A model generated the notes under the pieces. That model saw nothing but the letters and a program-made list of their open reading frames with translations, made no database searches and was not told the origin of the DNA. From NCBI RefSeq assembly GCF_000152965.1, contig NZ_CH902583.1, forward strand, positions 3,823,992-3,887,991: DNA of 64,000 bases, given 5' to 3'. The first letter of the stretch is position 1. Each line of letters starts with the position of its first letter. This stretch comes from Roseobacter sp. MED193. GTDB lineage: Bacteria; Pseudomonadota; Alphaproteobacteria; Rhodobacterales; Rhodobacteraceae. Below, piece after piece: positions 2,934 to 10,984 of this stretch. A program made the translations under genes and the position numbers.

Positions 2934-5498
2934 CTAGCCCGCCACTCCAAGGTGACGGGCTAGAGCCTGGAGAATTACTCCATTAGTATTTAGGTCAGAG
3001 TAAGATTCAGTTGATCGCCCGGTTTTAACAAAAGTGGAAGATGAGAAACCATTGTCGGTCTTTGATGTTTCCCTAACAAATTTTAAAAGGTTATCCGAGT
3101 AATCATGCGGCTGGTAGGCATTCCAAAGAAAAGCTGACTTTGTACTAACCACTAGAAAGTTCTCCCTAAAATCGGGGGTTCGGTACTCCGGTTCCTTACC
3201 GACCGTATCTGTTGCCCATGTCCGCTGTTCTGCATCGAGCTGAAGACCTTGATAGGTAAACCAAGGATTTCGATCAATCGGTCCTTCAGATACGCAGATC
3301 AGCCGCCCTGTTTCTCTAAACTCTTCAACCTGGGTCGAGAACAGGACATCTGCAAGATAAGAGCTTTCTCGCGACATGCCCATTTCCATTGCTTCAAGTA
3401 AGAGCGGCTCAGCTCCTATTGGGCCGATTGTGGCAACCGCCTCTAGCAATGCAGTTTGGTCATCCGTCACCGAAATTCCTTTAAAAACCTCGTACGGAGA
3501 CAGGACATCAAAACCCCACCTGCGAAAAGCCAATGCCGAATAGTGTGCGCTATGCGAGACATAGGATGAGGTCAGCTTTCCATCTATAACTGACTGTACC
3601 TTTCCATCCAAGATGATGTCCTTGAGATCCCATGATGCCACGAGCTCTTCAAGTTGGTCTTCAAACCCTCCAAACCGGCGCAAATTGTCGAGTGAAGACA
3701 ACAGGCGCCCTGCATCACTTCCATCAAAATTCTTGTTACCCCATTTGTGACGATCTGTACGAATCCAACCTTGGGGCAAGCGCCGTTCCTGCGAGGTGCG
3801 GCCAATGATGTTCGGAAGAATTTTATTGATGGAACGCTCAAACTTCTTTTTGTCGATCAGGCCAATCTGCGTTGCAGCAATTAGTCCATTTATGTGGCTA
3901 CCGACATCCCACATCGTAACGGTTTCATGCAATCGCCCCCCTGGGGCTGAATTCACAGTGGCAGGACAGAGTCCGGTTTTCTCGTTGGTGAAGCGATGGA
4001 AATACCGCCAAGCGATTTGAGCATCCTCCAAAAGGTCTTCTTTTTCCAAACGTTTCAGAGGCCTTCTGGGCTGCCTTAGTCCTGGTTGCGCTGCAGCGAC
4101 CTTGCGTCTTCTCGACGAAATTGGATCTTTCGGTGCTCGAAACCGCACGAATTGATCAATAGGCAGCGACGAGGTAATCCCATCGTTCAATAATAGTGAG
4201 ACCAGCTCAAAAAACGTATTGCGTACAGGTTGGGAGAATAGAAAATATGGATGAATCGAAATGATCAGGTCATCCATACCGCCTATGGCTTGACGTAGCT
4301 GCCCCATTGAACTCTCGGAGTGGATTTTCAACTCGATGGCATTCAATAGTCCGTTGCGGTCAAAGCCCGTTTGTCCATCTTCAGATGAACGAAAAACGAT
4401 CCCGACCCCAGAACCAAGTGGACGGGTAGTGCGGATTGTAGTAATGTTATCCGGCAGGCTCTTAGGGATCTCGAAAGGGATCATTTGGGGCCGGGCCAGA
4501 CCCTGGGCTGTTTGAATTTGCGCCACATCAGAGGGGACCCAAATTCCCCGAAGAGGGTCCAAAGGATCCCGGCTAGGGTCTGCCACTTCTGTGAGCTGTA
4601 CCCCCATCTTGATTAGCGTTGACCGTAGTTCGTTGTAGAATGACGAAAGCGAGGCATCGTTTTCTGGGGGGCGGACCAGAAGGCAGCATAAATGTCGTTT
4701 AAACTCATAATTATTACGCAACTGTAAATCCGAGGCAGGTTCCAAGGATATCAGCCCGTCCAACTCCGCTTGTGATAGCTCTGAACAAAATTGATTTGCA
4801 GCAACCTCAATTTTTTTGACGGGATATTGCGAGAATTCTGATGTAGATAGGTAAATCACACGTTGACTGCTCTTTGCTTCTTGACCAGCAGGCAAGTGTT
4901 GAAAAGAGCCCAGCGAGACCTTTTGGCCTCCAAACAGCCGTGCAGTTCCTGTGTCCCATGTTTGAGATTGGACTGGGCTGTTTTCATTCGGCTGCACAAG
5001 GATATTGAGAATTCCAGCAGAACGCGTTCCAGTGGGGGCAGTCGGCCTGTCGACATCATCACAAACGACTGTCCGGATAGGTCTGCGAAGGATTGTTCCT
5101 TTCAGAGCCGCAAGTAACCGTTGCAAAGCTTGAGAAGCCTCAAAAGTGGTTCTTGCCTGGAAGTGGGGGGATAGCTTTGCCAAATCAGGAATATAGGGAG
5201 CAATCTCGATATTGCTGCCACCTAACAGATACCCCTGCAGAAGTTGGGCTAGTTGACTACCTGTACCAAGTTCTTGCTGCGCGGAATCGAATGGGGAGAT
5301 GGCACAAACGACGGGTATGTTTTGATCTGTAAGCGCGTCTAAAACCGCAATCAGATGTGGGAAGGAGGTTTCCTCACTTACTCCTGAGAGTACAACGATA
5401 CTTTGTTGAACCGACGAAACGGCAAGTGGAGACCTTGCTCCTAAAGGAACCAGGGCCATGCTAGCAACAGCCGATTTCAACAGAGTTCTTCGGTTCAT
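2934..5498 (-). CDS. Tat-exported DUF3131 domain protein of the exopolysaccharide locus
   Basis: An 854-residue protein opens with MNRRTLLKSAVASMALVPLG, a twin-arginine-like signal (RRTLLK then a hydrophobic stretch, probable cleavage after a region ending SPLA), so the mature protein is probably periplasmic. Residues of about 30-470 look like a degenerate polysaccharide-deacetylase-type alpha/beta fold without the metal-binding TFDDG and HxxxH motifs. The C-terminal half (about 490-850), starting at DAQIAWRYFHRFTNEKTGL and with WDVGSHINGLIAA, matches the DUF3131 family, whose fold resembles (alpha/alpha) toroid glycosidases. Its ATG overlaps the GT2 stop codon (ATGA at 5495-5498), so the two are translationally coupled. 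Family members recur beside GH18/CE4/GT2 synthases. A role in processing or exporting the polymer is inferred. Confidence 0.75.
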   Translation of the reverse strand: MNRRTLLKSAVASMALVPLGARSPLAVSSVQQSIVVLSGVSEETSFPHLIAVLDALTDQNIPVVCAISPFDSAQQELGTGSQLAQLLQGYLLGGSNIEIAPYIPDLAKLSPHFQARTTFEASQALQRLLAALKGTILRRPIRTVVCDDVDRPTAPTGTRSAGILNILVQPNENSPVQSQTWDTGTARLFGGQKVSLGSFQHLPAGQEAKSSQRVIYLSTSEFSQYPVKKIEVAANQFCSELSQAELDGLISLEPASDLQLRNNYEFKRHLCCLLVRPPENDASLSSFYNELRSTLIKMGVQLTEVADPSRDPLDPLRGIWVPSDVAQIQTAQGLARPQMIPFEIPKSLPDNITTIRTTRPLGSGVGIVFRSSEDGQTGFDRNGLLNAIELKIHSESSMGQLRQAIGGMDDLIISIHPYFLFSQPVRNTFFELVSLLLNDGITSSLPIDQFVRFRAPKDPISSRRRKVAAAQPGLRQPRRPLKRLEKEDLLEDAQIAWRYFHRFTNEKTGLCPATVNSAPGGRLHETVTMWDVGSHINGLIAATQIGLIDKKKFERSINKILPNIIGRTSQERRLPQGWIRTDRHKWGNKNFDGSDAGRLLSSLDNLRRFGGFEDQLEELVASWDLKDIILDGKVQSVIDGKLTSSYVSHSAHYSALAFRRWGFDVLSPYEVFKGISVTDDQTALLEAVATIGPIGAEPLLLEAMEMGMSRESSYLADVLFSTQVEEFRETGRLICVSEGPIDRNPWFTYQGLQLDAEQRTWATDTVGKEPEYRTPDFRENFLVVSTKSAFLWNAYQPHDYSDNLLKFVRETSKTDNGFSSSTFVKTGRSTESYSDLNTNGVILQALARHLGVAG

Positions 5499-6931
5499 AG
5501 ATTGTGTGTCGCCAATTGGTAGTCACGCCCTTGTCGTTTGAGCGAACTCCAGTTGGCCAAACGCCCGGTCAGAGCTCGCAAAATCGCCCGCATGACCGAG
5601 AAATACAGCAACGGACGGTAAACCACACGCTGCAAAGGGAAAAGAAGCAGAGACCAGTTACTTTCTTCACGGTCCGTGGAAATAGCGAAGAAGGCAATCA
5701 GGAACTCAAGCGCAGGCAAGGTCAGATACGCCCACAGAAACTTTGTTTGGCTGGGGTCGTGAGGCGAGCCTACATCACCAGTCCAGCTACCGGAAAAGTG
5801 AGAATAAACCAATACTGCGATAAACAGGTCTGCAATTGGGGCGAGTAGTGGGAACAGGTAGCCAAAGACAAACATATCAGGAATGGAGACCAGACCAATC
5901 GAGCGAGTTTCACGCATTGCCGCCTTGTGCTTCCATGCGCTTTGAAACATTCCCAGAGACCAGCGGAGTCTTTGGTTCAAGAGTTGCCCAACCCGTTCAG
6001 GTGCTTCAGTATAGCCGCGCGCGAGTTTTTCATAGACTACCTTGTACCCAGCCCGGTTAACCTGAATTGTTAGATCGGTGTCTTCGGTCAAGGTTTCAGA
6101 GCAAAACATTCCGACCTTTTCCAATGCCTCGACACGCCAGGCTCCGATGGCCCCAGGCACCACCAATATGCCGTTGATAAGATCAAAGGCCCTGCGGTCA
6201 ATGTTCTGCGACGTGGCGTATTCATAGGCCTGAAGGCGGGTCAGGAGATTGACCCGGTTTCCAACCATGATCTTGCCAGCTACAGCCCCGACTGTGGGGT
6301 CATCAAAGTGCTTTACCAGATGATCAATTGCATCCTGTCTGATCTGAGTGTCTGCATCGATGCAAACAACATACTCGGCGTCAACCATCATGATCGCGCG
6401 GTTGAGCGCGCTCCACTTTCCTTGATTGGGCTGCGAGATGAGGTGTACTTCGTTCCGTTCTTTGAACTTCAGAACTTCGGCAACGGTGTTGTCCGTGGAT
6501 CCATCATCCACGACGATAATTTCCAAGTTTCCATAGGTGCAGGCACGCACGCTCTCAATACACTTGGCAATGACATCCTGTTCATTATAGGCAGGGATGA
6601 TCACCGCCACTTTGGGGTCATTGTCAAACTCAATCGTTTTTTTGCGACGGTTTGCCGAGGCCATCAGAATAATTGCGACAGATCGGACTACACCGATGCA
6701 CAGCACAATCCAAAAGATAACAACAATTGCATCCTTTGCGGTTACGGCTGCGGAAAAGGTAATCCGGTCAAAAATTGGATAGGCTCCTTCTCGTACCGGC
6801 ATCAATGCACCTGATGTGGTACCTAAAAGATCCGCCAAAGTTGTGAACTCGTATCCTTTTGACCGTAACTCATCAATGATCACCGGAAGGGCCGCAACTG
6901 AAGCACTCCGATCTTCACCACCATCATGCAA
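5495..6931 (-). pseudogene. GT2 polysaccharide synthase, 3' half of a fusion gene split by an IS
   Basis: The open frame encodes 478 residues. The first ~37 (HDGGEDRSASVAALP, then GYEFTTL) are the tail of a CE4 deacetylase domain, not a natural N-terminus. A membrane helix follows (about 70-95) and then a processive family-2 glycosyltransferase: VIIPAYNE, VDDGSTDN, the DAD metal site, the TEDTDL catalytic Asp region and QRLRW, as in PgaC/NodC-type synthases. About four membrane helices close the protein. The coding frame continues upstream without a stop to the IS at 7026. Joined to 8655-10552 it gives one 1141-residue protein. The first ATG that could restart translation is at 6931, but no clear ribosome site precedes it. 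If still translated, the synthase domain itself is complete. Confidence 0.8.
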
Positions 6932-7022
6932 GAGGATGACATTTCCTGCTCCAATTTCGGCCTGCTCAATGACGTAGGATGCAATTTGTTTACTGCTCCA
7001 ACCTTCCCAATCTTTAGGGACA

Positions 7023-7025
7023 ATA
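7023..7025 (+). repeat. Target site duplication (ATA), left copy
   Basis: ATA directly precedes the TG end of the element at 7026 and recurs at 8655-8657 after the CA end. A 3-bp duplication with TG...CA ends is typical of the IS3 family. Confidence 0.75.
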
Positions 7026-7063
7026 TGGACCTGTCGCGTTTTAGTGCCGCCCCAAGTGCTCGT

Positions 7064-7921
7064 TTAAGCCACCTTTCGTTCGAAGGCGACAGGGCTTTTC
7101 CAGCCCAGTGCTGAGTGACGGCGGCGTGGATTGTAGAACCCGTTTATGTATTCGAAGATCGCCATTTCAGCCTTCCGACGGGTCTCCCAAGGATGCCGCC
7201 AGATCAGTTCAGCTTTGATGGTCTTGAAGAACGTCTCGACGGCGGCGTTGTCGTAACAATTACCCTTACCGCTCATCGATACTTTGAAGCCGTTCTGGCG
7301 CAGGATTTTCTGGTAGTCATGGGAACAATATTGCGACCCGCGATCCGTATGATGGATGCAGCCTTTGGGCGGCTGCCGGAACGCGATGGCCATATTCAAC
7401 GCCCGGATCGCCAAGTCGCGTTTCATCCGATTGCTCACGGCCCAGCCGATAACACGCCTTGAATGCAGATCGAGGATCACGGCCAGATACAGCCAGCCTT
7501 CGCGGGTCCAGACATAGCTGATATCCCCCGCCCACTTTTGATTTGGCAGGTCAGCTGAGAAGTTTCGATCCAGCAAGTTCGGCGCGATATTGAACTTGTG
7601 GTCACTGTCTGTCGTGACCTTGTGTTTGCGTGTTCTGACAACAGATATCCCGTTCTGGCGCATCAACCTGCCAACACGACGGTGGCCCACGTTCAAACCG
7701 ATCTCCTTCAACTCTTCGGTCATTCGTGGGCGGCCATAGCTCCCCAAACTAAGCCGCGACTGCTCTTTGATATGAGCCAGCGTGACCAGATCAGATCGCT
7801 GCCTACGACTGGCTGGGCGACTGCGGAATGCGCGTAACCCGCGTGCGCTGACACCGACGACCTCGCACAACCGGGCGGCTGGAAAGCTGCCCCTGTGTTC
7901 TTCGACAAACCTAAATCTCAT
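7064..7921 (-). CDS. IS3-family transposase OrfB (DDE integrase domain)
   Basis: A 285-residue rve-type integrase. An HTH_21-like segment (SYGRPRMTEELKEIGL) is followed by the catalytic core: GDISYVW (first Asp), HTDRGSQY (second Asp) and NAAVETFFKTIKAE (Glu). The C-terminus is WKSPVAFERKVA. Its ATG overlaps the orfA stop (ATGA at 7918-7921). In orfA, 30-40 bases before the stop, the run CTTAAAAAAAGCC (7 A at 7951-7957 on the opposite strand) is a classic A-AAA-AAA slippery site. A -1 shift there reads KSHPVLCGPKAMRFRF straight into orfB with no stop, so the active transposase is most likely an OrfAB fusion made by programmed frameshifting. No inactivating mutation is seen. Confidence 0.93.
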   Translation of the reverse strand: MRFRFVEEHRGSFPAARLCEVVGVSARGLRAFRSRPASRRQRSDLVTLAHIKEQSRLSLGSYGRPRMTEELKEIGLNVGHRRVGRLMRQNGISVVRTRKHKVTTDSDHKFNIAPNLLDRNFSADLPNQKWAGDISYVWTREGWLYLAVILDLHSRRVIGWAVSNRMKRDLAIRALNMAIAFRQPPKGCIHHTDRGSQYCSHDYQKILRQNGFKVSMSGKGNCYDNAAVETFFKTIKAELIWRHPWETRRKAEMAIFEYINGFYNPRRRHSALGWKSPVAFERKVA

Positions 7922-8193
7922 TGCTTTAGGCCCGCAAAGAACTGGGTGGCTTTTTTTAAGATCTCCCTCTCCTCCTTCAGGAGCCGGTTCTCCCGTCGAA
8001 GTCGATCATTCTCTTGAGCCAGGCTCAAATCCTCTTTGGAAACCACGTCTGTGTCTCGGTGTGCAGTGATCCATTTGTTCAACGTCGACATGCCAACACC
8101 CAGATCGTCAGCCACCTGCTTACGCGTCAGCCCACTGGTTAATGCGATGCGCACCGCATCTTGTCGAAATTCGTCTGTCCGTTTCAGTCCCAT
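7918..8193 (-). CDS. IS3-family OrfA (HTH), copy 1
   Basis: A 91-residue protein (MGLKRTDEFRQDAVRIAL) with a helix-turn-helix near residues 20-45 (LTRKQVADDLGVGMSTLNKW) and a leucine-zipper-like C-terminal coiled coil rich in Arg/Glu/Leu. It binds the element's ends and, through -1 frameshifting on the A7 run, supplies the N-terminus of the OrfAB transposase. It is identical to the copy at 8316-8591. The ATG follows AAAGGAGATGAACT, a strong ribosome site. Confidence 0.92.
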   Translation of the reverse strand: MGLKRTDEFRQDAVRIALTSGLTRKQVADDLGVGMSTLNKWITAHRDTDVVSKEDLSLAQENDRLRRENRLLKEEREILKKATQFFAGLKQ

Positions 8194-8256
8194 AGTTCAT
8201 CTCCTTTGTTGCAGTAAATGCTATCAAAGGAGCGGCATCAAACCGTGACAGGTCCA

Positions 8257-8654
8257 GACCTCGCACAACCGGGCGGCTGGAAAGCTGCCCCTGTGTTCTT
8301 CGACAAACCTAAATCTCATTGCTTTAGGCCCGCAAAGAACTGGGTGGCTTTTTTTAAGATCTCCCTCTCCTCCTTCAGGAGCCGGTTCTCCCGTCGAAGT
8401 CGATCATTCTCTTGAGCCAGGCTCAAATCCTCTTTGGAAACCACGTCTGTGTCTCGGTGTGCAGTGATCCATTTGTTCAACGTCGACATGCCAACACCCA
8501 GATCGTCAGCCACCTGCTTACGCGTCAGCCCACTGGTTAATGCGATGCGCACCGCATCTTGTCGAAATTCGTCTGTCCGTTTCAGTCCCATAGTTCATCT
8601 CCTTTGTTGCAGTAAATGCTATCAAAGGAGCGGCATCAAACCGTGACAGGTCCA
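8257..8654 (-). mobile_element. Truncated outer copy of the IS (left end and orfA only)
   Basis: This unit has the left terminal repeat at its outer edge, the whole of orfA with its A7 slippery run, and orfB cut after about 20 codons at the left end of the intact copy. It cannot encode a complete transposase but duplicates OrfA dosage and supplies an extra left end. Confidence 0.85.
8316..8591 (-). CDS. IS3-family OrfA (HTH), copy 2
   Basis: The 91-residue sequence is identical to copy 1 at 7918-8193, with the same upstream ribosome site. Its orfB partner is truncated, so frameshifting here would give only a short OrfA-derived protein. In IS3-family elements free OrfA tends to repress transposition, so an extra copy might dampen activity; that is inference. 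Confidence 0.88.
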   Translation of the reverse strand: MGLKRTDEFRQDAVRIALTSGLTRKQVADDLGVGMSTLNKWITAHRDTDVVSKEDLSLAQENDRLRRENRLLKEEREILKKATQFFAGLKQ

Positions 8655-8657
8655 ATA
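8655..8657 (+). repeat. Target site duplication (ATA), right copy
   Basis: This is the second copy of the ATA flanking the composite IS. Deleting 7023-8654 (one duplication plus the insertion) joins the two gene halves in frame. Confidence 0.75.
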
Positions 8658-10552
8658 TCCATGCCTGAAATGATGTAACCGCGTTGCTGAGCCTCCATCA
8701 AAGAAGCGACTCTCGCTCCACTGATGGGGCCTCCGCTTCGCAAGAAAGGCTCCCGGTAAAGCAGAGAGCCTCGACCAGAGACCCCAGCGACAATCCGATC
8801 TAGAAGAGAAAACTCGAGCTCTAACCGGGTATCTGAAATCTTATCCATTCTGGGATGCGAAAAGCTATGTGCACCAACTTCGTGCCCTTCATCAACGATA
8901 CGATTCAACAGATCGGGAGCATTCATAACGCTTTGGCCGAGCACAAAAAAGGAACCAGGCGTATTGGTATCTCGCAGAATGTCCAGAATATCCTTGGTGT
9001 ATTCCGGATGCGGGCCGTCATCAAATGTTAGGACCAATTTCGTGGCCTCCGGCTTGCCATAACGCTCAACCGAATAAGGTGTGGGGATGGTGGTATATGT
9101 TTGCTCAATAAGTCGACCGCTCGCGAGATCAAAACTAGTCTGGCGAAAACCAACATTCGCTTCAGCTTTGACACGCAAGAATGCGCCTTGACCAGTGTAG
9201 TCTACATAGTTTTGCAAGTCGACCATCGCCAGTTGTGAGCTCAATGCTTCCTTTGTCTCCAGCTCCCCTGCAAGTACTTTCCACAGGCCTGGATCTTCCT
9301 GGCCCATAGACCAAACGGCAACATTTGCGAGTCCCAACTGACGAACCACAGCAAGCTGGTTGTGCGCTGACGCCGCGTCGAGCATCCAAATCTTATGCAG
9401 TGTTCCTTCAGAGTCAGTGAACCTGCTGAAACTATTGGATGTTCTGGGGCTAAACAGCACCTCGGCCTCAGCTTCTCCAATTCGTTGCACCGCCGCTGAA
9501 TAGGACAGTGTTTCGGGCAACGCCGTTCCAGAAGTCCAGTCCACTGCAAAGTTGCCAAGCGCTACAACCAGGCGTTCAGGTTCAATTCCCTTTACCGCTT
9601 GGCTCAAAGTTTTCTCAAACCATTGATCCGACGCTAACGGCATTGGCGCTGACCCGACCCAAGGGATTTGGAACATTTTCAAAATGACCTGATCAAAGTC
9701 CTGGATCAGGTCAGGCTGTTGCCACAGCGTTTGTTCGGGGTTCAAAACAATACACGAGACCAAACCATTTGTGCGAAACTGGGTTGTCAACTCACTCCAA
9801 AATGGAGCCAGGCGCTGCATGTCGTTGACCTTAAGAGTATTGAAATCAAGACAGGCCCCCTGTGCGCTCAAGGCGGTTAACGTTTCAGCCAGTGAAGCAA
9901 TGATTGCCGCTTTGCTGTTTTTTTCGACTAATAGATCTACGAAATGGTCCGGAATTCCAGATATGTTCAGCGATACAACAGGAAGCAAGCTAGTTGCTCG
10001 TTCTGTTTCAGCAACATACTCTGTGACAGCAAGACGCGTATCATCACTCGCCAAGGACACAGAAAGAATGTTCTTTTCAACCTCAAGCGTGATCCACTCA
10101 GGAACAAGAACACTCGGACGGGCACATTCATCGGCAAGCGAAAGATGTGCCCATTCATAAGCAATGGGCAGATGAGCATACAACCTGGGTGTAGACGCTG
10201 ATTCAGCCATGGCTGAAAAAACGGGTTGTTCAAACGGCCTACAAGTTTCAGAGGCTTCCGATGTCGGGGCTTGGGTCTGAACGACATGATCATGAGAAGC
10301 AGAGTGTTGGTGTTCAAGCGTAACCACGTTTTCAACTTGGTACGGAACTTCCTGACCAAGTTCCAAGTAGGAGATTGGAGACCAGACACCTAGATCCTTG
10401 ACAAAAAACCAAAGCCAGGCTGAAAGCCCAATGAGGCAAAGAAGAAAGATCCGACGAACGAGCTTGGAACGCCGCTGGACCGGATCTTCAAAGACTTTGG
10501 TTGCCGTCGCTGCAGACGGCAGCATCTCATTGTGAAACGTATAACGCTTCAT
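8655..10552 (-). pseudogene. GH18-like / CE4 polysaccharide deacetylase, 5' part of a split fusion gene
   Basis: The start at 10552 (MKRYTFHNEM) is preferred over 10585 because GGAG lies 8 bases upstream. A cytoplasmic tail, one membrane helix (about 35-55: LCLIGLSAWLWFFV) and a linker are followed by a GH18-like barrel (about 120-480). At the GH18 catalytic strand the sequence is CLDFNTL, with Asn where the acid Glu is expected, so this domain is probably a non-catalytic sugar-binding module. A NodB/CE4 domain starts near residue 500 with TFDDGP, HSFSHP and YREPF, and breaks at GMDI where the IS sits. The frame reads on into the IS as GPVTV and stops at 8636. CE4 motif 4 (DIVPKDW) is split and motif 5 (LLHDGG) lies beyond the IS. 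Confidence 0.85.
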
Positions 10553-10984
10553 AATGGGCACTCCACAGAGTGCAAAACCAGCCATTCTAAGTTTGCTTCA
10601 CGTGCGGAACAGGCACATGAAATTCCAATCGCTCGCGACACGAGCTCTCCTCACCCCTGGTGCACAAAGATCGTGTCTCAGCGAGACAAACCGTCTGAGC
10701 GTCCCCCACAGAAACTCAAACGCAGATCAAAATGCTGCTTCAATCTGTTCATTTTGACTTTATGCTAATTTCAGTCAAATTTCTTTCAGTTTTTAACGTG
10801 ATTTTAGGTTTTTTCGGGGTCTGGAGGGGGCACTTGGAGAACAATGCCTAAGATACCATGGCATTGTTTGCAAAAAACCACTGCTAGAGCCCGTCTCATA
10901 CGATGCGACTCACTAAAACTCAGCAGCTGTGGGAAAACCAATCGCGGCCACCATTTTGGAAACAGTTTGTCTCGCCAAAATTGC

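Follow-up and report, generated by a model that had tools for sequence, protein, structure and literature searches.

Here, we analysed a 64,000-nucleotide stretch of contig NZ_CH902583.1 of Roseobacter sp. MED193 (hereafter, the window, to which all positions refer), in which a minus-strand gene for a GH18-like/CE4/GT2 fusion protein is split by DNA of an insertion sequence (IS) of the IS3 family. With a start at either 10585 or 10552, the gene reads as far as ...GMDI (8655), where it breaks off; it picks up again at 7022 with VPKDW... and ends at 5495. The inserted DNA spans 7023–8654 (1632 bases) and is bounded by a 3-bp ATA direct repeat, the target-site duplication, with the right copy (ATA on the plus strand) at 7023–7025 and the left copy (ATA on the plus strand, TAT on the minus strand) at 8655–8657; the coordinates, repeat and frame arithmetic given in an earlier note on this DNA, made from the sequence alone, are all correct. 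The upstream fragment (8636–10585, minus strand) comprises an N-terminal membrane segment, the GH18-like region and the CE4 deacetylase domain through motif 3 plus the DI of motif 4, with CE4 motifs numbered 1–5 in the customary way (PF01522, 82.7 bits, residues 511–615, profile positions 3–106 of 124); its frame reads to ...GMDI and then closes within the IS end after five IS-encoded residues, GPVTV, and a stop codon. The downstream fragment (5495–7022, minus strand) opens with VPKDWEGWSS and contains the VPKDW of motif 4, motif 5 (ILLHDGG), a membrane helix, a complete GT2 domain (VDDGSTD, DADT, TEDTD, QRLRW) and C-terminal helices. The cut falls within CE4 motif 4, leaving motif 5 and the GT2 domain on the far side of the insert, which bears out the separation of motifs 4 and 5 claimed in the earlier note. 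An in-frame ATG at 10585, 33 bp upstream of 10552, would give 1152 rather than 1141 residues, and the candidate start codons vary between relatives. Translation of the insert as part of one long protein was considered and rejected: its 1632 bp are a multiple of 3, yet the translation has many stops. A 1700-codon frame returned by a genome search was taken as an effect of chaining two matches.

The insert consists of the 3-bp repeat, a complete IS and a partial second copy in tandem, both IS parts lying on the minus strand. The complete element (7026–8256, 1231 bp) has the ends TGGACC...GGTCCA and matches the NCBIfam model transpos_IS3 with 348.2 bits (cut-off 160). It encodes the 285-aa transposase OrfB (7064–7921; rve integrase core, PF00665, 108.5 bits), the start of which overlaps the stop codon of orfA (ATGA), and the 91-aa OrfA (7918–8193; HTH_Tnp_1), with a run of A near the orfA end that is a possible site for the -1 frameshifting by which IS3-family elements make an orfAB fusion. 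The left inverted repeat (8229–8256) pairs with the right one (7026–7053) over 28 nt at 82%. The partial copy (8257–8654, 398 bp) is 100% identical to IS positions 1–398 and carries an outer left inverted repeat (8627–8654), which also pairs with 7026–7053 over 28 nt at 82%, a 91-aa orfA (8316–8591) and the first part of orfB. Elements of the IS3 family generate short target duplications of 3–4 bp, and the features by which the family is recognized are all found here: an IS3-type DDE (rve) transposase, a helix-turn-helix orfA overlapping orfB, terminal inverted repeats and a 3-bp target duplication. The earlier note had described a single IS at 7023–8654 without decay; the extent of the inserted DNA stands, but it is not one clean element, and the absence of decay holds for the complete copy only, not for the 398-bp partial one.

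The junction between the partial and complete copies reads ...GAGGTC followed by TGGACC, as a nested insertion would leave. We propose that an active IS3-family element transposed into the chromosomal synthase gene, duplicating 3 bp; that a second copy would then have inserted into the first at IS position 396–398, duplicating GTC; and that the two right parts, lying in the same direction, could have recombined homologously with the loss of one of them, leaving the 398-bp partial copy beside the complete one. Judging from the sequence, nested insertion followed by recombination most likely accounts for the arrangement; it would yield exactly the observed order of IS parts. Elsewhere in this genome (locus L088), another copy of the same IS is itself split at positions 303–307 by a different element of 1.25 kb, whose ends are of the TGACCTGCCCCC type and which, by eye, has an AAAG repeat; we count this nesting of another IS within an IS copy as support for the proposed history.

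The element is abundant in its host. A search of the 4.67-Mb genome gave 15 matches, namely nine complete copies, a tenth in two pieces, the partial copy of the window and three short or diverged pieces, and the identical 1231-base string is present in all nine full copies. A matching 3-bp repeat is present at the split copy and at five of the nine (for the window, the outer flanks were compared). In other genomes, full-length matches reach at most 84% identity within the genus (12 genomes; short pieces reach 98% over 53 bp) and 87% within the family (295 genomes, two candidates scored per genome). Full 1231-bp matches annotated as IS3 family transposase are also found on Rhodobacteraceae plasmids (e.g., CP049030.1), but the best of the 67 matching plasmid records, of which CP049030.1 is an example, has 86.0% DNA identity and none reaches 90%. 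Given the nine exact copies here and full-length outside matches of at most 84% (genus) and 87% (family), the IS appears to have multiplied recently within this lineage. That the insertion in the synthase gene is recent, as the earlier note held, gains support from the nine exact copies and the undecayed fragments, although a date is not obtainable.

In the relatives, the interrupted gene is a single reading frame. A scan of genome contigs yielded 22 loci; with two weak Macrococcus matches set aside, 20 alphaproteobacterial loci remained, several of them from metagenome-assembled genomes, and all 20 carry one fused GH18-like/CE4/GT2 frame of 1127–1191 codons, stop to stop. The flanks of the insert align to all 20 uninterrupted relatives without an internal gap. 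The nearest relatives, Pseudophaeobacter EL27, Roseobacter SK209-2-6 and Phaeobacter CECT 5382, are 93, 90 and 85% identical in protein sequence over the downstream part; in blastn comparisons with these three, the alignment is broken at the insertion site, and synteny with G004/EL27 extends to both sides of the insert, where DNA identity as far as the break is 91% and 83%. Six of 60 relatives gave a match at E below 1e-90, and in five of the six the frame is fused. Of the 295 genomes sampled from the family, 22, that of MED193 included, gave a match at E <= 1e-80, and the other 21 contain 22 loci, 21 of them fused (1112–1189 codons) with one exception, in genome G024; this sample and the contig scan share at least two loci (L095/L056 and L100/L062, with equal frame length and scores). 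Thus, two separate genes can be dismissed as the ancestral state (20 of 20 and 21 of 22 loci being fused), and the view that an IS split a fused 1141-residue protein withstood the search for relatives with separate genes. The exceptional locus (L087, at its own positions 6579–10559) is itself cut: a GT2-only orthologue with intact signatures begins beside a gene pair which, by eye, belongs to an IS21-like element, and no GH18/CE4 part was found in 18 kb of that locus. Within the genus, the gene is accessory, since it is found in 3 of 11 other genomes. It is uninterrupted in all three, full-length copies of the IS across the genus are at most 84% identical, and an insertion shared with these relatives was rejected on these grounds. 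A backup for the split gene was sought in the MED193 genome itself, and none was found: apart from itself, the GT2 half matches nothing at more than 46.4 bits (each of the 10 candidates from the first look was scored), and a full-length relative used as query matches only the two halves at E <= 1e-80 (2 of 10 candidates scored). Three other CE4 matches above the cut-off lie elsewhere in the genome.

The conserved residues point to the nature of the enzyme. Eight residues of the CE4 domain (D511, D512, H562, H566, R600, D637, W638 and H665) are invariant across the 20 aligned rows, and in the window D637, W638 and H665 are severed from the rest. The four signatures of processive GT2 enzymes (DDG, DAD, ED and QxxRW) are all present in the window fragment, and the best NCBIfam match of this domain is PgaC_IcaA (TIGR03937), at 195.5 bits against an equivalog cut-off of 422.3, by which measure the protein falls outside the PgaC family. 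A wider set of 36 proteins that passed the filter, from 41 loci (L112, L113, L114, L115 and L117 were left out, and at least two likely duplicate loci are among the 36), contains the strict motif 5 pattern in 30, DDG in 35 and DADT in 34. The GH18-like region scores 22 bits against PF00704, below the cut-off of 29.6, and the GH18 catalytic motif DxxDxDxE is absent from all 36; its predicted fold resembles those of SleL and chitinase-like proteins (mean predicted local distance difference test score (pLDDT) of the model 68; GT2 part poor). In the poly-N-acetylglucosamine (PNAG) system pgaABCD, a GT2 synthase is partnered by a CE4 deacetylase of the periplasm that has an additional domain acting on sugars (PMC5933820). 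The protein described here resembles PgaB and PgaC in combining a CE4 deacetylase, an extra sugar-acting domain and a GT2 synthase, the last being closest to PgaC_IcaA, but differs in that all are in one polypeptide, the extra domain is GH18-like rather than GH153 and the gene directly downstream encodes a DUF3131 protein. By analogy, the fused protein may work like PgaB and PgaC in one chain. The proposal that it is a processive, self-deacetylating polysaccharide synthase is a fair reading of the QRLRW motif, the PgaC-like GT2 domain and the conserved CE4 motifs, albeit a prediction.

The target gene would accordingly encode a membrane-bound polysaccharide synthase of three parts, a GH18-like barrel, a CE4 deacetylase and a processive GT2 domain. 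The predicted upstream product stops within the IS, past CE4 motif 3. Without the conserved motif 4 residues (aspartate and tryptophan) and the motif 5 histidine, it should have no deacetylase activity. Because the GT2 half has lost its own start and promoter, production of the deacetylated polymer has most likely ceased, and the deacetylating synthase as such is most likely lost. Consistent with this, though weakly, the split gene shows 20 amino-acid to 18 silent changes on the window branch versus 11 to 28 on the EL27 (L046) branch (p = 0.038), counted only at sites where the outgroups L047 and L048 agree, which hints at relaxed constraint. Taken as a whole, the account in which an IS3-family element entered the synthase gene, a second copy nested within it and recombined, and the deacetylated polymer was lost seems to us highly probable.

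Several observations weigh against this account. The proposed nested insertion has left no trace on the right side, and a direct duplication, or the transposition of an element that had already been doubled, would look the same. Neither fragment contains a stop or frameshift, and loss of function is therefore invisible as decay. The branch-specific excess of amino-acid changes is weak; the intact DUF3131 gene shows none (18 to 24 versus 16 to 18, p = 0.82). The IS and the downstream genes are collinear, so GT2 and DUF3131 could still be transcribed, and no terminator-like site was found in 6700–7300, an absence that says little given that 0.6 are expected by chance. These last points invite the alternative that the insertion is not a simple knock-out and that transcription reading out of the IS, which has the same orientation, keeps a free PgaC-like GT2 in use together with DUF3131, giving an acetylated polymer. 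Such a product (5495–6802, minus strand; 435 aa) could start at the in-frame ATG at 6802, just before the membrane helix; its GT2 signatures are all intact, the start of the DUF3131 gene overlaps its stop, and the orthologue in G024, also with intact signatures, likewise stands alone beside an IS21-like pair. However, a consensus scan of 6700–7300 gave no promoter-like site (0.6 expected by chance), by which an outward promoter at the IS end was rejected as a candidate, the ribosome site is weak by eye, and the slight excess of amino-acid changes hints at relaxation. We regard this alternative as unlikely. Its stronger form, in which the IS acts as a domain separator that would convert the fused deacetylating synthase into a free-standing, PgaC-like one with transcription coming from the IS, the polymer passing from deacetylated to acetylated rather than being abolished, is slightly less probable still; if it were true, the GT2-only orthologue of G024 would be a second, independent case.

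Two further alternatives concern the insert itself. The junction, or at least the 398-bp tandem copy, could be an assembly artefact, since short-read assembly copes poorly with a direct repeat and with nine copies of identical sequence. Assemblers, however, tend to collapse tandem repeats rather than invent them, the window lies within a 4.12-Mb contig of a 4-contig genome, the ATA repeats match and the flanks are syntenic, which makes an artefact very improbable. Alternatively, precise departure of the IS in some cells might restore the enzyme in reversible on/off switching, for which the unaltered flanks and 3-bp repeat could be cited. IS3-family elements move by copying via circles and rarely leave precisely, and the tandem partial copy would make clean removal less likely still. 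Polysaccharide genes are known targets of switching, which has been proposed for IS492 in Pseudoalteromonas atlantica and for IS256 in the staphylococcal ica locus (PMC2536512, PMC4322838), although the latter source reports no ica-operon insertion of IS256 among 120 clinical isolates. The insertions of IS256 in icaA, icaB and icaC and of IS492 in P. atlantica resemble the present case in that an IS alters or stops polysaccharide production, but they involve other IS families and switching is proposed there, whereas no reversal is seen here; moreover, the target here is a fused CE4-GT2 gene, and the insert includes a partial second copy. Switching appears the least probable of the alternatives. 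We thus favour loss of the synthase through IS3 insertion. Inactivation of a polysaccharide gene by an IS is a known and ordinary kind of event; the enzyme and its DUF3131 neighbour, by contrast, are little studied.

The neighbouring gene, directly downstream (2934–5498, minus strand), encodes an 854-aa protein with a DUF3131 domain (PF11329, 263.8 bits); its ATG overlaps the stop codon of the split gene, and its reading frame is intact. A DUF3131 gene directly adjoins the fused gene in all 20 loci of the genome-contigs scan. In the family sample, in which such relatives are often visible only in part (1.5-kb flank), 14 of the 21 fused loci have one as a neighbour, encoded on the same strand in ten cases and on the opposite strand in four, one of these four being weakly scored. 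An alignment of DUF3131 proteins covered the window and 17 of the 20 relatives. The predicted structure (mean pLDDT 78; predicted template modelling score 0.53) in part resembles beta-1,2-glucanases and cyclic beta-1,2-glucan synthases, with 10–13% identity among the best rows and query TM-scores near 0.3, which suggests that the DUF3131 protein is a glycan-acting partner of the synthase. Judged by titles and abstract openings, the literature searched holds no description of a GH18-like/CE4/GT2 and DUF3131 pair; DUF3131 is mentioned there in three papers, and nowhere together with glycosyltransferase. The locus is a record of how an active IS deprived one strain of a roseobacter polysaccharide enzyme that is otherwise intact. 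Comparing this natural mutant with relatives in which both genes are whole could help to show what the uncharacterised GH18-like/CE4/GT2 and DUF3131 pair makes.

Several minor observations concern the IS. No matching 3-bp repeat flanks four of the nine exact copies (L004, L006, L007 and L009), a pattern suggestive of rearrangements among them; simple inversion between copies was rejected as the cause, as the end triplets fail to pair up. A 61-bp remnant at positions 1741–1801 of the window shares 93% identity with the right end of the element. In three other genomes (L118 in G006, L122 in G272 and L123 in G070), relatives of the IS3 element are themselves interrupted near position 305, by the A-run at the orfA end: the left part ends at 305, 305 and 272, and the right part resumes at 305, 318 and 305, respectively. 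The interrupting elements carry a transposase frame that, by eye, we take to be of the IS110 type, of 455 aa in L118 and 471 codons in L123 and broken in L122, with a further transposase-like frame in L123.

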